NCBI RefSeq assembly: GCF_900130045.1
Contig: NZ_FQXT01000003.1
Span: 434,001-498,000 of the forward strand
Direction: 5' to 3'
Source of the DNA: Leeuwenhoekiella palythoae
GTDB lineage: Bacteria > Bacteroidota > Bacteroidia > Flavobacteriales > Flavobacteriaceae
DNA: 64,000 nt
Of the stretch, positions 9,491 through 58,566 are shown one piece after another. Positions within the stretch are counted from its first letter, which is position 1; each line of letters begins with the position of its first letter. Under the pieces are notes generated by a model. That model worked only from the letters and a program-made list of their open reading frames with translations. It was not told where the DNA came from and did no database searches. The translations under genes and the position numbers were made by a program.

Positions 9491-9517
9491 AACTCCTTAG
9501 AAATAAGGAGTTTTTTT
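9491..9517 (+). terminator. Intrinsic terminator after acyl-CoA ligase
   Basis: A 9-bp stem (AACTCCTTA / TAAGGAGTT) with a GAAA loop is followed by a run of T, seven bases after the stop codon. Confidence 0.85.
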
Positions 9518-9577
9518 ATGAATATACCCATCAATCATCTTGTGAGATAATAATCTTATAAAATTTCCTTAATTTAT

Positions 9578-9589
9578 TATGCGTGCATA
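9578..9589. promoter_or_regulatory. Putative MarR operator TATGC-GT-GCATA
   Basis: A perfect 5-bp inverted repeat with a two-base centre lies 29 bases before the marR-family start, where it would overlap the promoter. MarR regulators usually bind short palindromes of this kind in their own promoters, so autoregulation of the beta-oxidation operon is likely but inferred. Confidence 0.5.
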
Positions 9590-9618
9590 GTATTATTTTT
9601 TTAACTTTACGAAAACGT

Positions 9619-10083
9619 ATGAGTAAAAAAGATATCACAATAGATCACGCCCTTAGAGCGACCTGGCAAGCCGTCATTAAAATGTATAATGAGCAAGCTG
9701 CAAAGTTAGACAGTACGATGGCTACAGGTTTTGCTTTATTGAGTATAGACCCTGAGGAAGGAACGCCTTCTACAGCTTTGGGACCTAGGATGGGAATGGA
9801 AGCGACCAGTCTCTCTAGAACCCTAAAATCAATGGAAGAACGCGGACTTATAGAACGTAAACCCAATCCGGCTGATGGTCGGGGCGTATTGATTTTCCTG
9901 ACTGAATTTGGAAAGGAAAACAGAGACTTTAGTAAAGACCGTGTATTGAAATTTAACGAGGCGGTTCGCGCTAACATTGATGCAGAAAAAGTAGATCACT
10001 TTTTTGAAGTGATTCACGTCATCAATGATTTAATACAGAATAAAAAAATTTATAACACTTCTGAAACTACTATAAAACAATGA
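9619..10083 (+). CDS. MarR-family transcriptional regulator of the beta-oxidation operon
   Basis: A 154-residue winged-helix regulator. I chose the ATG at 9619 (MSKKDITIDHALRATW): the frame is open further upstream, but an earlier start at 9583 would overlap the palindrome and add residues without family likeness. The recognition region reads GMEATSLSRTLKSMEERGLIERK (about residues 66-88) and the wing reads PADGRGVLIFLT. MarR proteins bind DNA as dimers and are released by small ligands; here an acyl-CoA or fatty acid is plausible. The stop overlaps the start of the next gene (ATGA at 10080-10083), which shows translational coupling with the pathway it probably controls. Confidence 0.9.
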   Translation: MSKKDITIDHALRATWQAVIKMYNEQAAKLDSTMATGFALLSIDPEEGTPSTALGPRMGMEATSLSRTLKSMEERGLIERKPNPADGRGVLIFLTEFGKENRDFSKDRVLKFNEAVRANIDAEKVDHFFEVIHVINDLIQNKKIYNTSETTIKQ

Positions 10084-12488
10084 GTAAAAGACGTATAAAT
10101 AAAGTTGCAGTAATTGGCTCTGGTATTATGGGAAGCGGCATCGCTTGCCATTTTGCAAACATAGGAGTTGAAGTGCTGTTACTCGATATAGTTCCTCGCG
10201 AACTTAACGACAAAGAGAAAGCAAAAGGCTTAACGCTTGAAGATAAAGCGGTACGCAACAGACTGGTAAATGACCACCTTCAAAATGCGTTAAAATCTAA
10301 GCCCTCTCCTATTTACCACAAAGATTTTGCAAATCGCATCACTACTGGTAATATGGAAGATGATATCGCTAAAGTAAAAGACTACGACTGGATCATCGAG
10401 GTGGTGATCGAGCGTTTAGATATCAAAAAGCAAGTTTTTGAAAAACTCGATAAGCACCGTACTCCGGGCACACTGATCACTTCAAATACTTCAGGAATCC
10501 CGATCAAGTTTATGAGTGAAGGTCGAAGCGATGATTTCCAGAAGCATTTCTGCGGAACACATTTCTTCAATCCGGCGCGCTACTTAGATCTTTTTGAGAT
10601 CATTCCGGGACCAAAAACTGACAAAGAAGTTTTAGAATTCCTGAATGCCTACGGCGAAAAATTCCTTGGAAAAACTTCAGTTGTAGCAAAAGATACTCCG
10701 GCTTTTATCGGTAACCGCGTAGGTACCTATAGTATAATGAGTCTTTTTCACACCGTGGAAGAACTTGGGATGACGGTTGAAGAAGTTGATAAATTAACAG
10801 GCCCGGTAATTGGTCGTCCAAAATCGGCTACCTTCCGTACCGTTGATGTTGTAGGACTTGACACCTTAGTTCACGTGGCGAATGGTATTCGTGAAAACGT
10901 AGAAAACGATGAGCGTGCTGAGTTGTTTTCGCTACCTAACTATATCAACACGATGCACGAGAATAAATGGTTGGGAAGCAAAACCGGACAAGGATTTTAT
11001 AAGAAAATTAAAAAGGAGGACGGCTCTAGCGAGATTCTAACGCTAGACTTGAATTCTATGGAATACAGAGCCAATAAACGCGCCTCTTTCAGTACGCTTG
11101 AGATGACCAAGTCTATTGATAACGTGGCAGATCGTTTTCCGGTTTTGATTAAAGGAAAAGATAAAGCCGGAGAATTCTTCCGTAAAAATTTCGCCGGATT
11201 ATTCGCTTACGTGCAGAATAGAATTCCTGAGATCACAGATGAACTATACAAAATTGATGACGCGATGCGTGCCGGTTATGGCTGGGAACACGGTCCGTTT
11301 CAAATATGGGATGCCGTAGGTTTAGAGAAAGGAATCGAATTGATGAAAGCCGAAGGTTATGAAGTAGCCGATTGGGTTGCTGCAATGCTTTCTTCCGGAA
11401 AAGATTCCTTCTATACCGTTAAAGAAGGAAACACCTTCTACTACGATATTCCGAAGAAAGAATATTTGAAAAAACCGGGTCAGGATGGCTTTATTATTCT
11501 CGATAACATCCGTCAATCTAAAGAGGTATTTAAAAACAGCGGCGTTGTTGTTGAAGACCTCGGCGATGGAATTCTAAATGTGGAATTCCGTTCTAAAATG
11601 AATTCTATCGGTGGTGATGTGCTATCAGGTTTAAATAAAGCTATCGATTTAGCAGAAAAAGATTTCGCCGGACTCGTTGTTGCCAATCAAGGGAAGAACT
11701 TCTCTGTGGGTGCCAATATCGGGATGATCTTTATGATGGCCGTTGAGCAAGAATATGATGAGCTGAATGCTGCCGTTAAATACTTCCAAGATACCTGTAT
11801 GCGCTTGCGCTACTCTTCTATTCCTACTGTTGTTGCTCCACAAGCTATGACTTTAGGAGGTGGTTGCGAGATGACTTTGCACGCAGACCGCGTAGTGGCC
11901 GCTGCTGAGAGTTATATCGGTTTGGTAGAATTTGGTGTTGGGGTAATTCCCGGCGGTGGTGGTTCTAAAGAAATGACTCTTAGAGCTTCTGAAACTTATA
12001 AAAAAGACGACGTCGAGTTAAACCGACTACGCGAATATTTCCTAACAATTGGTATGGCAAAAGTTTCGACTTCTGCCTATGAAGCTTACGACTTAGGGAT
12101 TTTAAAACCGGGTAAAGATATTGTCGTGGTCAATAAAGATCGCCAGATCGCTGCAGCTAAAGAAGTAGCGAAGTTTATGGCAGATCAAGGCTACACCAAA
12201 CCTATTGAACGTAGCGATATTAAAGTCTTAGGTAAACAAGCTTTGGGTGCTTTTTTAGTAGGAACCGATCAAATGAACGCAGGGAAATACATCAGTGATC
12301 ACGATAAGAAAATCGCTAATAAACTAGCTTATGTAATGGCCGGCGGTGATTTATCGGAGGCTTCTTATGTAAGTGAGCGTTACTTGTTAGATCTTGAACG
12401 CGAAGCCTTCTTAAGTCTTTGCGGAGAGCGTAAAACCTTAGAGCGCTTAGAGCATATGATCAAGAAAGGGAAACCGCTAAGAAATTAA
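10080..12488 (+). CDS. 3-hydroxyacyl-CoA dehydrogenase / enoyl-CoA hydratase (bifunctional)
   Basis: This 802-residue enzyme carries two steps of beta-oxidation: hydration of enoyl-CoA and NAD-dependent oxidation of 3-hydroxyacyl-CoA. The N-terminal Rossmann fold shows GSGIMGSGIACHFAN (residues 12-26), followed by HFFNPARYLDLFEIIPG and the C-terminal dehydrogenase domain (TPAFIGNRVG). The crotonase domain is at the C-terminal end (about 500-700; GKNFSVGANIGMI, MTLGGGCEMTLHADRV, EFGVGVIPGGGGSKEM). The order is therefore reversed compared with E. coli FadB/FadJ, where the hydratase comes first; this layout is common in Bacteroidetes and in some Firmicutes and Proteobacteria. It forms the pathway with the thiolase and acyl-CoA dehydrogenase downstream. 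Confidence 0.93.
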   Translation: MSKRRINKVAVIGSGIMGSGIACHFANIGVEVLLLDIVPRELNDKEKAKGLTLEDKAVRNRLVNDHLQNALKSKPSPIYHKDFANRITTGNMEDDIAKVKDYDWIIEVVIERLDIKKQVFEKLDKHRTPGTLITSNTSGIPIKFMSEGRSDDFQKHFCGTHFFNPARYLDLFEIIPGPKTDKEVLEFLNAYGEKFLGKTSVVAKDTPAFIGNRVGTYSIMSLFHTVEELGMTVEEVDKLTGPVIGRPKSATFRTVDVVGLDTLVHVANGIRENVENDERAELFSLPNYINTMHENKWLGSKTGQGFYKKIKKEDGSSEILTLDLNSMEYRANKRASFSTLEMTKSIDNVADRFPVLIKGKDKAGEFFRKNFAGLFAYVQNRIPEITDELYKIDDAMRAGYGWEHGPFQIWDAVGLEKGIELMKAEGYEVADWVAAMLSSGKDSFYTVKEGNTFYYDIPKKEYLKKPGQDGFIILDNIRQSKEVFKNSGVVVEDLGDGILNVEFRSKMNSIGGDVLSGLNKAIDLAEKDFAGLVVANQGKNFSVGANIGMIFMMAVEQEYDELNAAVKYFQDTCMRLRYSSIPTVVAPQAMTLGGGCEMTLHADRVVAAAESYIGLVEFGVGVIPGGGGSKEMTLRASETYKKDDVELNRLREYFLTIGMAKVSTSAYEAYDLGILKPGKDIVVVNKDRQIAAAKEVAKFMADQGYTKPIERSDIKVLGKQALGAFLVGTDQMNAGKYISDHDKKIANKLAYVMAGGDLSEASYVSERYLLDLEREAFLSLCGERKTLERLEHMIKKGKPLRN

Positions 12489-12490
12489 AG

Positions 12491-12573
12491 TAGAAATTAG
12501 AAAAAAGATAATAGATCAGAGACGATTAAGAGATTACAAAATCTATCCTCTTATATCTTTTCTCTTTTCTCTC
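12491..12573. repeat. Purine/pyrimidine inverted repeat without a gene (empty relative of the IVS-type element)
   Basis: The 100-base gap before the thiolase starts with a purine-rich arm (12491-12534, beginning TAGAAATTAGAA) and ends with a pyrimidine-rich arm (12541-12572, TCTTTTCTCTTTTCTCT). The arms are imperfect inverted repeats. The left arm resembles the left flank of the four-helix-bundle gene one gene downstream (TAGAAATCTTAGAA), and the right arm resembles its right flank. Confidence 0.5.
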
Positions 12574-12588
12574 AAAAAAATCTAAAAA

Positions 12589-13779
12589 ATGAAAACAGCA
12601 TATATCGTAAAAGCATACAGAACAGCCGTAGGGAAAGCACCGCGTGGTTTGTTCCGTTTTAAAAGACCAGACGAACTCGCCGCAGAAACCATCGATTACA
12701 TGATGAAGGAGCTTCCTGACTTTGACAAGAAGCGCATTGATGATGTGATGGTGGGTAATGCGATGCCTGAGGCAGAGCAAGGCCTTAACGTTGGTCGGTT
12801 GATCTCTTTGATGGGATTAAAGATCGAAGACGTTCCAGGAGTAACGGTGAACCGTTATTGCGCTTCAGGAATTGAAACCATCGCGATGGCTTCGGCTAAA
12901 ATTCAGGCAGGAATGGCAGATTGTATCATCGCCGGGGGTGCCGAAAGTATGAGTTACATCCCTATGGGTGGTTACAAACCGGTTCCTGATTATAAAGTGG
13001 CAAAAGCCGGAAACGAAGATTATTATTGGGGAATGGGACTTACTGCAGAAGCGGTAGCCAATCAGTTTAATGTTTCTCGGGAAGATCAGGATGAGTTCGC
13101 TTACAACTCACATCAGAAAGCCTTAAAAGCGCAGGAAGAAGATCGTTTTAAAGAGCAAATCGTTCCGATTGATGTGGAGCACACATTTGTAAACGGTGCC
13201 GGAAAGAAAGAAACTAAAACCTATACGGTAAGTAAAGATGAAGGTCCACGTGCAGATACCAAGCTTGAGATTCTGGCAAAATTGCGCCCTGTTTTCGCCG
13301 AAGGCGGAAGCGTAACCGCAGGAAACTCTTCACAAATGAGTGACGGTGCAGCATTTGTACTAGTGATGAGCGAAGAAATGGTTAAAGAACTGAATCTAGA
13401 ACCAATAGCGCGTCTGGTGAATTTCGCAGCCGTTGGTGTAGAACCACGCATTATGGGAATTGGTCCCGTAAAAGCAATTCCGAAGGCTTTAAAACAAGCC
13501 GGATTGCAGCAGAAAGATATCGACCTTATCGAATTGAATGAAGCTTTCGCTTCGCAATCCTTAGCCGTAATCAGAGAGTTAGATCTTAATCCAGATATCG
13601 TAAACGTAAACGGTGGTGCCATCGCTTTAGGTCACCCGCTAGGTTGCACGGGAGCTAAACTTTCCGTTCAGCTTTTTGATGAAATGCGCAAACGTGAAAT
13701 GAAGAGTAAATACGGCGTTGTCACAATGTGCGTAGGTACCGGTCAGGGTGCAGCCGGGGTTTATGAGTTCCTTAATTAG
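12589..13779 (+). CDS. Acetyl-CoA C-acyltransferase (3-ketoacyl-CoA thiolase)
   Basis: A 396-residue thiolase that cleaves 3-ketoacyl-CoA to acetyl-CoA and a shortened acyl-CoA, the last step of beta-oxidation. All catalytic residues are visible: nucleophile C91 in NRYCASG, H349 in GHPLGCTGA and the acid/base C381 in MCVGTGQGAAG, with NEAFASQSLAVIREL before the histidine. The length is normal for the family. It lies between the hydratase/dehydrogenase and, after the inserted four-helix-bundle gene, the acyl-CoA dehydrogenase. The 100-base leader in front of it contains an inverted repeat instead of a normal short operon spacer. Confidence 0.95.
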   Translation: MKTAYIVKAYRTAVGKAPRGLFRFKRPDELAAETIDYMMKELPDFDKKRIDDVMVGNAMPEAEQGLNVGRLISLMGLKIEDVPGVTVNRYCASGIETIAMASAKIQAGMADCIIAGGAESMSYIPMGGYKPVPDYKVAKAGNEDYYWGMGLTAEAVANQFNVSREDQDEFAYNSHQKALKAQEEDRFKEQIVPIDVEHTFVNGAGKKETKTYTVSKDEGPRADTKLEILAKLRPVFAEGGSVTAGNSSQMSDGAAFVLVMSEEMVKELNLEPIARLVNFAAVGVEPRIMGIGPVKAIPKALKQAGLQQKDIDLIELNEAFASQSLAVIRELDLNPDIVNVNGGAIALGHPLGCTGAKLSVQLFDEMRKREMKSKYGVVTMCVGTGQGAAGVYEFLN

Positions 13780-13785
13780 AAATCT

Positions 13786-14215
13786 TAGAATAGAGAGCAA
13801 AGAACAGAGATAAAAGAGTTTTAATTATGAGCAAAAGAAGGCATAATTATAAAAACTTAAAAATTTGGTCTTTAGGATTGGAAATAGCTTGTGATATTTC
13901 TGATGTAATTGAATCTTTTCCTAAAGATGAAAGATTTGATCTCGCTTCACAAATGAGTAGAGCTAGTACATCAATCCCAAGCAATATTTCAGAAGGTTCA
14001 TCTAGAACAGATAAAGCTTTCAGCACTTTTATTGATTATGCTCTGGGATCTTCATTTGAATTGGGTACTCAATTACTGATAGCTAGACATAAAAATTATA
14101 TAGACGATAAAAAAATAGTTGAATTAGAAACCAAAATACAGGAATGGCAAAAAATGACAATGGGATTTCAAAACGGCTTGTAACCGATGATCTCTTCTCT
14201 TTTTTCTCTATTCTA
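13786..14215 (+). mobile_element. IVS-type element: four-helix-bundle ORF between 26-base inverted repeats
   Basis: The outer 26 bases (13786-13811 and 14190-14215) are inverted repeats identical at 22 of 26 positions without gaps; the outermost 11 bases (TAGAATAGAGA) match perfectly. They enclose a single small gene. The two flanks sit exactly between the thiolase stop and the acyl-CoA dehydrogenase start, interrupting an otherwise tight operon. The layout is that of a small mobile or formerly mobile cassette. No transposase is present, so movement would need help in trans. Confidence 0.5.
13827..14183 (+). CDS. Four-helix-bundle protein (S23/23S rRNA IVS-type family)
   Basis: This 118-residue protein belongs to the family first seen as an ORF inside intervening sequences of 23S rRNA genes. 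Typical features are YKNLKIWSLGLEIACDISDVIESFPKDE near the start, LASQMSRASTSIPSNISEGSSR in the middle (residues 38-60) and a final helix before the end. These proteins fold into a four-helix bundle and form pentamers; their job is not established, with nucleic-acid binding often suggested. Here the gene is not in an rRNA but inside the beta-oxidation operon, between inverted repeats, and its AT content is higher than that of its neighbours. This fits an inserted element, not a fatty-acid enzyme. Confidence 0.85.
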   Translation: MSKRRHNYKNLKIWSLGLEIACDISDVIESFPKDERFDLASQMSRASTSIPSNISEGSSRTDKAFSTFIDYALGSSFELGTQLLIARHKNYIDDKKIVELETKIQEWQKMTMGFQNGL

Positions 14216-14235
14216 TTTTCTTAAAATACATTACA

Positions 14236-16044
14236 ATGGCAGAAACAGCAGATAAAAAAGAAATTCTACGTGGCGGGCAATTCTTAGTTAAAGAAACCGC
14301 TTGTGAAGATGTTTTTACTCCCGAAGATTTTAACGAGGAGCAAAAAATGATGAAGGAAACGGTTAAAGAATTTGTTGACCGTGAGATTGTTCCTAACAAA
14401 GAACGTTTTGAACATAAAGACTATGCGCTTACCGAAGAAGTAATGCGTAAAGCCGGTGAACTTGGTCTTCTTGGTATCGCTGTTCCTGAGGAGTACGATG
14501 GTCTGGGGATGGGCTTTGTTTCAACGATGCTTGTTTGCGATTATATTTCGGGAGCTACGGGTTCTATCGCGACAGCCTTTGGTGCGCACACCGGGATTGG
14601 TACAATGCCAATCACCCTTTATGGTACCGAAGAGCAAAAGAAAAAGTACGTTCCCAAATTGGCTACCGGCGAGTGGTTTGGCGCCTATTGTTTAACAGAA
14701 CCGGGAGCAGGTTCTGACGCCAACAGTGGTAAAACAAAAGCTGAACTTTCACCAGACGGAAAAAGCTACAAAATCAACGGTCAGAAGATGTGGATTTCCA
14801 ATGCCGGTTTTTGTAACCTGTTTATTGTTTTCGCTCGTATTGAAGATGATAAAAACATCACCGGTTTCATTGTAGAAAATGATCCATCAAACGGAATTTC
14901 ACTTGGTGAAGAAGAAAAGAAGTTAGGTATTCACTCCTCTTCTACCCGTCAGGTATTTTTCAATGATACCGTGGTTCCTGTAGAAAATATGCTTGCCGGT
15001 CGTGGCGAAGGTTTCAAGATCGCGATGAATGCACTTAACGTAGGTCGTATCAAACTTGCTGCTGCCTGTCTCGATGCGCAACGTCGTATCATTGATATGG
15101 GCGTAAAATATGCAAATGAGCGCGTTCAGTTTAAAACACCGATTGCCAAATTTGGTGCGATCAAGTATAAGTTGGCTGAAATGGCTACGAATGCATATGT
15201 ATGCGAAAGTGCTTCCTACCGCGCAGCTAAAAATATTGAAGATCGAATCGCAATCAGAATGGCCGATGGTAACAGCCATCAGGAAGCCGAATTGAAAGGT
15301 GTTGAAGAGTATGCGATCGAGTGTTCTATTCTTAAAGTTGCCGCTTCAGAAGATATGCAGAATTGTGCCGATGAAGGTATCCAAATTTATGGTGGTATGG
15401 GCTTCAGTGCCGATGCGCCGATGGAAGCTGCCTGGAGAGATGCTCGTATTTCGCGTATTTACGAAGGTACCAACGAGATCAACCGTATGCTGGCAGTAGG
15501 AATGCTTGTGAAAAAAGCGATGAAAGGTCACGTAGATCTATTGAACCCTGCGATGGCAGTTGCCGATGAATTAACTGGAATCCCTTCTTTTGATACCCCA
15601 GATTATTCTGAAGTCCTTTCTGAAGAAAAAGCGATGATTGCTAAACTGAAAAAAGTATTCTTGATGGTTGCAGGAAGTGCAATCCAAAAATATGGGCCAG
15701 CACTAGAAGAGCACCAGCAATTATTGATGGCAGCTTCAGATATCTTGATTGAGATCTATATGGCAGAAAGTGCCATTTTACGTACAGAAAAGAACGTAAA
15801 ACGCTTTGGCGAAGACGCTCAGAAAGAGCAAATCGCAATGGCGCAATTGTACCTGTATCACGCTGTAGATACCATTAACCAAAAAGCAAAAGAAGGCATT
15901 GTGTCTTTTGCTGAAGGTGATGAGCAGCGTATGATGCTTATGGGTCTTAAGCGTTTCACCAAATATCAAAATCAGCCTAATGTAGTTGCTTTACGCAATA
16001 TCATCGCTGAAAAAGTAACGGAAGAAAACACCTATCCGTTCTAA
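14236..16044 (+). CDS. Acyl-CoA dehydrogenase (long form, FAD-dependent)
   Basis: A 602-residue flavoenzyme for the first step of beta-oxidation, oxidising acyl-CoA to trans-2-enoyl-CoA. The N-terminal and middle domains show LLGIAVPEEYDGLGMGF and AYCLTEPGAGSDANSGKT, and the C-terminal helical domain shows QIYGGMGFSADAPMEAAWRD and the catalytic glutamate E410 in RIYEGTNEINRM. It is longer than the usual 380-residue enzyme because of an added C-terminal helical region (about 430-602), as in very-long-chain dehydrogenases. It is the last gene of the MarR-led operon and is closed by a terminator at 16081-16112. Confidence 0.94.
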   Translation: MAETADKKEILRGGQFLVKETACEDVFTPEDFNEEQKMMKETVKEFVDREIVPNKERFEHKDYALTEEVMRKAGELGLLGIAVPEEYDGLGMGFVSTMLVCDYISGATGSIATAFGAHTGIGTMPITLYGTEEQKKKYVPKLATGEWFGAYCLTEPGAGSDANSGKTKAELSPDGKSYKINGQKMWISNAGFCNLFIVFARIEDDKNITGFIVENDPSNGISLGEEEKKLGIHSSSTRQVFFNDTVVPVENMLAGRGEGFKIAMNALNVGRIKLAAACLDAQRRIIDMGVKYANERVQFKTPIAKFGAIKYKLAEMATNAYVCESASYRAAKNIEDRIAIRMADGNSHQEAELKGVEEYAIECSILKVAASEDMQNCADEGIQIYGGMGFSADAPMEAAWRDARISRIYEGTNEINRMLAVGMLVKKAMKGHVDLLNPAMAVADELTGIPSFDTPDYSEVLSEEKAMIAKLKKVFLMVAGSAIQKYGPALEEHQQLLMAASDILIEIYMAESAILRTEKNVKRFGEDAQKEQIAMAQLYLYHAVDTINQKAKEGIVSFAEGDEQRMMLMGLKRFTKYQNQPNVVALRNIIAEKVTEENTYPF

Positions 16045-16080
16045 GGTTTTGCCCTAATTATTACATTTTGATTTGAATTC

Positions 16081-16112
16081 AACCCCGAAGCTTTGCTTTG
16101 GGGTTTGTTTTT
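16081..16112 (+). terminator. Intrinsic terminator of the beta-oxidation operon
   Basis: AACCCCGAAG pairs with CTTTGGGGTT (one G-T pair) across a five-base loop at 16091-16095, and a T-rich tract follows. Confidence 0.75.
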
Positions 16113-16163
16113 TAAAGAGTAATGAGAATGGAATAAACTAAGATTGGCTCAAATCTTGATTAC

Positions 16164-16196
16164 TTTGGTTGTGATGTAAGAAACATTGTATCTTTA
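16164..16196 (+). promoter_or_regulatory. Putative Bacteroidetes-type promoter (TTTG-N21-TATCTTTA)
   Basis: TTTG at 16164-16167 and TATCTTTA at 16189-16196 are 21 bases apart. This fits the flavobacterial -33/-7 consensus (TTTG or TTG, then TAnnTTTG) except for the last base. Transcription would begin a few bases before the ATG at 16214. Confidence 0.4.
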
Positions 16197-16213
16197 AAAC
16201 TTCAACTTAGTTT

Positions 16214-58458: not shown

Positions 58459-58566
58459 ATTAGCAGGAGTTGTGTTACGATAATTTTAATAAATTTTTTA
58501 CATTTAATCGTAATTATTTGCAATTAATCGATTATACTTGTATCAAATTTTACTAACCCAACTCCT

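Follow-up and report, generated by a model that had tools for sequence, protein, structure and literature searches.

A probable IVS-type mobile element with tandem 7-mer arms in the thiolase operon spacers of Leeuwenhoekiella palythoae

Introduction

Short inverted-repeat units that lack a gene and occur beside gene-bearing relatives are known from MITEs and REP/RAYT systems, and heptamer repeats of cyanobacteria are known as STRR. Arrays of the heptamer TAACTGA occur in Beggiatoaceae, Cyanobacteria and Bacteroidetes with no evident mechanism of transfer, and the main text of the report contains no S23, four-helix-bundle or intervening-sequence term (PMC4679880). For the 23S intervening sequence (IVS) of Coxiella burnetii, an S23 ORF, terminal inverted repeats that form a stem, excision by RNase III and a sporadic spread with horizontal transfer are described. 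Tandem GACAGAT heptamers are located just upstream of the S23 ORF, which was found to be decaying and is probably untranslated, and the function and origin of IVS have stayed unclear for more than 25 years (PMC4990558). A likeness of the PF05635 family to Avd is noted in a paper on DGRs (PMC10053308), four-helix-bundle genes were reported inside phage-like regions of Flavobacterium columnare (PMC5524665), and the 23S rRNA IVP is named in a figure legend of a CRISPR-discovery paper (PMC10910872). Among the papers listed in a literature search, screened by title and start of abstract and including few subscription journals, none brings together IVP genes, 7-mer arms and operon spacers, which is only a weak sign that no such work exists.

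Here, an element with an IVP gene is described from a 64,000 nt stretch of the L. palythoae genome (NZ_FQXT01000003.1, positions 434,001 to 498,000), referred to as the window. The genome of the window is designated G000, the spacer before the thiolase gene UP and the spacer between the thiolase and acyl-CoA dehydrogenase genes DN.

The element and its host operon

Both spacers are flanked by three genes, which we take to encode a protein of the 3-hydroxyacyl-CoA dehydrogenase/enoyl-CoA hydratase type (10080..12488), a thiolase (12589..13779) and an acyl-CoA dehydrogenase (14236..16044); these and all features of the two elements are located on the forward strand. The full element makes up the entire DN spacer (13780..14235). 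It consists of a left arm (13786..13811), in which the 7-mer pattern continues by eye to about 13819, the gene of an S23/IVP four-helix-bundle protein with an Avd-like fold (118 aa, 13827..14183) and a right arm (14190..14215), whose pyrimidine tract extends to 14222. The arms of 26 nt are inverted and complementary at 22 of 26 positions (85%), and the local-alignment score of this inverted repeat was 18, with none of 200 shuffles above 13 (the highest score reached). When the full element is folded as RNA in silico, the arms pair mutually with 28 cross-arm pairs, and the overall fold energy is ordinary (z -1.24; 12 of 100 shuffles equally good).

The UP spacer (12489..12588) contains an arms-only element without a gene. 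Its left arm (12491..12524) is built of purine-rich degenerate 7-mers, with 21/30 at lag 7 in the spacer, and its right arm (12541..12573) of pyrimidine-rich 7-mers. The inverted repeat score of this spacer, 24, was equalled in none of 100 shuffles, and the left arm (12487-12518) pairs with the right arm of the full element (14188-14219) at 81%. Both structures, the four-helix-bundle gene within 26-base inverted repeats and the preceding spacer with like arms and no gene, had been proposed in the first-pass annotation and could be verified by these scores and by the protein family match given below.

No rRNA match was found within 9500-16200; the element is thus not situated in a 23S rRNA helix but between two protein-coding genes. 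A known RNA family was ruled out, the one Rfam match listed being far under its cut-off. A DNA search of G000 with the UP spacer revealed no second copy (best other match 18 nt, E 0.65). Among 70 spacers of 45-700 nt from 184 kb of G000, the 7-mer threshold was passed only by the three spacers bearing these arms, so that a dispersed repeat of G000 was ruled out as well. G000 harbors two PF05635 genes, the one in the thiolase operon and one between two genes presumed to be atpA and atpG; the arms of the latter element were missed by the 7-mer scan, their spacers being too short or nearly so. Another spacer of the window (58459-58566) carries a strong inverted repeat (score 30, reached in 0 of 100 shuffles) with AGGAGTTG and CAACTCCT near its ends, and is not among the spacers with a 7-mer signal in the G000 scan.

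The IVP protein

The 118-aa product matches PF05635 (E 1.7e-29) and TIGR02436 (E 1.7e-26), both above the cut-offs, and its AlphaFold model is a confident four-helix bundle (mean pLDDT 95.4). The closest structures found by Foldseek were 2GSC (TM 0.91, E 5e-7) and 2RLD, followed by the Avd structure 4DWL (TM 0.79, E 0.06, probability 1.00); the match to chain B of the Avd structure 8UB7 had a TM of 0.80 and an E of 0.16. A match to bAvd was also found on the sequence level (E 5e-4). The protein thus resembles the Avd of DGRs in its fold, but it scores under the Avd family cut-offs (PF22296, 21 bits with a cut-off of 40; NF033474, 19.9 bits with a cut-off of 80), and no reverse transcriptase was found in G000.

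The dN/dS of the IVP genes was 0.02-0.17 for most estimable pairs and 0.30 in three UP pairs, ratios that are rough because many dS values exceed 1; one pair showed no synonymous difference. Judged by these low ratios, the IVP gene is best read as being under purifying selection.

Arms of tandem 7-mers

The make-up of the arms is a new observation of this analysis: the arms are degenerate tandem 7-mers, sometimes of 8 nt, the 7-mers differ between elements, and one arm is mostly the inverse of the other. Autocorrelation of the flanks in 30 loci of the genus, out of 59 PF05635 matches, resulted in z values of 15.1, 10.5 and 6.6 at lags 7, 14 and 21, and 30 high-scoring loci from the taxonomic family of the host reached 16.2 at lag 7. 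For 79 named loci, mostly from Bacteroidota and a few from other phyla, the pooled lag-7 z was 26.6; 69 control spacers from these loci gave 5.1 and thus carry some lag-7 signal themselves. Lag 7 or 14 came out best at 56 of the 79 loci and lag 8 at 12. On cyanobacterial plasmids (16 loci from 22 records), the lag-7 z was 15.5 against 1.8 in 280 control windows, with a best lag of 7 or 14 in 10 of the 16 loci and of 8 in four.

Inverted similarity with a z of at least 3 was detected in 58 of the 79 loci and direct similarity in 13, and the arms gave a significant inverted repeat (p <= 0.01) in 22 of 30 loci of the genus and 18 of 30 loci of the taxonomic family. Inversion is weaker in the cyanobacterial loci, with significant inverted pairing in three of eight, and the arrays of Pseudanabaena share one direction. 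In 73 elements, the arms of one element fit each other better than swapped arms (0 of 5000 permutations). This was also the case within the UP site (11 of 5000), but not within the DN site (537 of 5000). In predicted RNA folds of the 73 elements, the mean number of cross-arm pairs was 16.8 with own, 8.1 with swapped and 8.6 with shuffled arms, and at least 12 such pairs were formed in 47/73, 76/219 and 23/73 cases, respectively; for the G000 element of the ATP synthase operon, the predicted fold contains none.

Distribution and preference for sites

The PF05635 family was found in 12 of 13 genomes within the genus; samples of the taxonomic family and of the phylum gave 118 of 149 and 157 of 198 genomes, respectively. 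Up to nine copies per genome occur in the genus and up to 19 in the taxonomic family. At 66 of the 79 loci the IVP gene is located between two co-directional ORFs; seven loci are mixed, six unresolved, and at none is it antisense on both sides. The host operons include, by presumed gene names, those of thiolase, ATP synthase, ffh-folD and sdhA-sdhB.

The elements prefer certain sites across genera, since their proteins group by site: those from the ATP, folD, fib and sdhB sites form one clade each, and a single clade accounts for 13 of 17 proteins at UP and seven of nine at DN. The remaining UP and DN proteins belong to other clades, which indicates that sites were also refilled. The tandem 7-mer arms, the wide spread of the family, the second copy in the ATP synthase operon and the keeping of sites go beyond the first-pass annotation.

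Two states and decay in place

The UP spacer is occupied in six of the 13 genomes of the genus, with an intact gene in G003, G005, G008 and G011 and a broken one in G009 and G012, and the DN spacer in five, intact in G000, G002, G004 and G008 and broken in G009. The remaining 15 UP and DN spacers of the genus have 91-157 nt, and most of them show 7-mer arms by eye. In other genera, the UP spacer comprises merely 3-6 nt in 11 of 29 cases. The atpA-atpG spacer is full in five of the 13 genomes, plain in five (29 nt in G003, G002 and G004; 32 nt in G008 and G001), and carries a short arm-like relic, recognized by eye, in three. A fixed operon member, the alternative that had been named for a gene always present at this place with arms found nowhere else, is ruled out by this patchy occupancy; the arms were indeed not found elsewhere in G000, whereas the gene is not fixed.

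On a two-gene tree of the 13 genomes, built from atpG and from thiolase, which itself recombines, four changes of occupancy are needed at UP, five at DN and four at ATP. The combined states show no more clustering on the tree than after shuffling, where 178 of 200 values were as low. Four sister pairs of the genus are fully supported, and each of them differs in at least one of the three sites. In the nearest relative, G003, the gene DNA of the thiolase operon is about 90-93% identical to that of G000, and the spacers align over at most 27 nt. Full and empty 29-nt atpA-atpG spacers share only short ends, and no target-site duplication was recognized by eye. Decay in place is seen in the broken genes and in the UP spacer of G001, a remnant which is 73-78% identical to the UP elements of three genomes. 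By eye, the folD spacer of G000 (L285) contains a scar with a single arm and its X1 spacer (L272) a decayed gene start.

GC-rich arms are present in five gene-less spacers (UP and DN of G006 and G007, UP of G010). In thiolase spacers of these genomes (L009, L010 and L005, respectively), GC-rich hairpin units with CCCC/GGGG arms replace the 7-mer elements, so hairpin units of more than one type occupy these spacers. A search of 257 loci revealed one exact GC-rich arm pattern only in loci of G006, G007 and G010, and no match for another; the arms of L101 resemble these units by eye.

An arms-only companion of like arm type is often located in the next spacer of the thiolase operon. For the 14 genomes with exactly one full thiolase spacer, the ends of the short spacer, taken over all 14, resemble the full element of their own genome more than those of others (mean score 30.6, compared to 20.0 for others; 0 of 10,000 permutations), and the same test within the genus gave 11 of 5040 permutations. 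The own full element is the top match in only four of the 14, as near relatives have arm types in common; no likeness to it is seen for the short spacers of G040, G025 and G017. In G000, G002 and G004 the empty UP spacer bears the arms of the DN element, while in G003 and G005, in reverse, the empty DN spacer bears those of the UP element. The view that the empty UP spacer is what remains of a UP-type element was therefore dropped. Together with the patchy occupancy, these matches agree with the earlier proposal of one element family in two states.

Exchange between species

Passage between species was observed at the site X1, where the IVP gene is nearly identical in the distant species G010 and G007 (8/75 synonymous differences) and the flanking genes are saturated (91/124 and 160/199). 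Thiolase, atpG and folD of this pair have 357/650 synonymous differences (Fisher p 3e-14 against the X1 gene). The UP gene of G003 and G008 shows 26/72 synonymous differences, compared to 423/650 in three other genes (p 3e-6), and is, by this measure, younger than the genomes. A moderate contrast was found for the folD gene of G007 and G002 (0/71 against 60/484, p 3e-4), and little or none for DN of G000/G004, DN of G002/G008, fib of G006/G010 and folD of G006/G005. The contrast is thus clear in only two or three of the seven pairs, which were picked for close-looking genes. The mobility between genomes assumed in the first-pass annotation has sequence-level support from X1 and from UP of G003/G008.

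A comparison of G010, G002 and G007 (L268, L269, L273) revealed mosaic X1 flanks with switches near the element: G002 resembles G010 over the final 120 upstream nt as well as in the downstream gene, and G007 farther upstream. This makes recombination at or near the element very likely, and stepwise homologous recombination may be behind the X1 exchange; the interpretation of X1 as a clean jump of the element only was softened due to these mosaic flanks. Between G010 and G007, no long shared tract was found on either side of the element. The dS of this pair is 0.45 for thiolase, far under that of atpG (1.76) and folD (2.11), which indicates that recombination is common.

The element contains no transposase or reverse transcriptase. 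RVT_1 matches are present in four of the 13 genomes of the genus, including both X1 genomes, G007 and G010, and absent from G000, so a resident reverse transcriptase is not needed for persistence. Y1 transposases occur in seven of the 13 genomes with no visible link to the number of IVP genes. A dependence on either resident enzyme showed no visible pattern in the genus and was rejected as an explanation.

Origin of the elements

The 7-mer arms, the switching of states, the matching arms-only copies and the near-identity at X1 are best read together as those of an IVS-type mobile element outside rRNA, which lives in the spacers of protein operons and is prone to decay. Such an element would ride on the transcription of the host operon, and its arms could pair in the transcript. 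Cutting by RNase III, as reported for the 23S IVS, might then free the element RNA and leave the neighboring genes unharmed. The Avd-like protein may bind this RNA or hairpin DNA and promote copying into matching spacers of other genomes, for which host recombination or an enzyme in trans would be used. The same process, or conversion between neighboring spacers, would yield the arms-only copies as non-autonomous products.

An exchange without any mobility of the element's own, in which homologous recombination between species swaps the spacers with their contents and vertical descent with frequent loss accounts for everything else, is rather unlikely, although the clustering of the elements by site, the mosaic X1 flanks, the low thiolase dS of G010/G007 and the remnants of in-place loss, partly seen by eye, are in line with it. 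Tracts of homologous exchange are usually longer, and no long shared tract accompanies the X1 element of G010 and G007; furthermore, passive exchange is at odds with sites refilled by UP and DN proteins of other clades and leaves the neighbor-type arms-only copies in the other spacer unexplained.

The low dN/dS, the co-directional placement at 66/79 loci and the arms retained without a gene at thiolase sites would also suit a transcript module of benefit to the host, in which the operon mRNA is regulated or cleaved by the arms and the protein, and the gene is an ordinary member of the operon. This is improbable in view of the differences within four of four well-supported sister pairs at one or more of three sites, the UP spacers of 3-6 nt in 11/29 cases from other genera, the plain atpA-atpG spacers of 29-32 nt in 5/13 genomes and the presence of the same family in unrelated operons. 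Tandem arrays slip, and 7-mers that are degenerate and differ between elements could be a mutational by-product, with slippage making the arrays and template switching at hairpins keeping the complementarity. We consider this very improbable, since slippage would not pick one period beside one gene family, whereas the period of 7, sometimes 8, is found across phyla, is tied to the IVP family and is little seen in the controls.

Compared with known systems, the IVS-type mobile element favored here shares with the 23S IVS the S23/IVP ORF, inverted repeats able to form a stem and a sporadic occurrence with horizontal transfer, and the GACAGAT heptamers reported for Coxiella agree with its 7-mer arms. 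It differs in its position in protein-operon spacers, the keeping of sites, the arms-only companions and a protein apparently under purifying selection. STRR and TAACTGA arrays are likewise intergenic 7-nt tandem units with a patchy occurrence over some shared phyla, but unlike the TAACTGA arrays, the arms described here are paired around an IVP gene and mostly inverted. Gene-less inverted-repeat units beside gene-bearing relatives are shared with MITEs and REP/RAYT; unlike these, the elements have no recognized target-site duplication and no matching transposase, their arms vary between elements, and their copies are bound to sites instead of being dispersed, with two PF05635 genes in G000.

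A wider reading, which we put forward tentatively and hold to be possible, is that IVP genes with 7-mer arms constitute a widespread unnamed class of site-faithful homing elements in operon spacers with the Avd-like protein as mobility factor. The 23S IVS, like the orphan heptamer repeats found in cyanobacteria, Bacteroidota and other phyla, would then represent arms, relics or special cases of this class. Such a class would offer many related full, empty and decaying sites for study, a test of the way in which an Avd-like protein spreads with no reverse transcriptase of its own, and a possible source of intergenic heptamer repeats. It would also caution against taking IVP genes in CRISPR or metabolic operons for functional partners, as they may be passengers.

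On three cyanobacterial plasmids (L055, L259, L261), IVP genes are located within annotated cas operons, in two cases between cas6 and cas4 and in one between cas10/cmr2 and cmr3, where they may be passengers instead of parts of CRISPR. On the Nostoc edaphicum plasmid pNe_5 (L054/L266), two ribonucleotide reductase genes enclose an IVP gene in antisense orientation, which is accompanied by nearly exact 7-mer arms of the AGGGAGT type.
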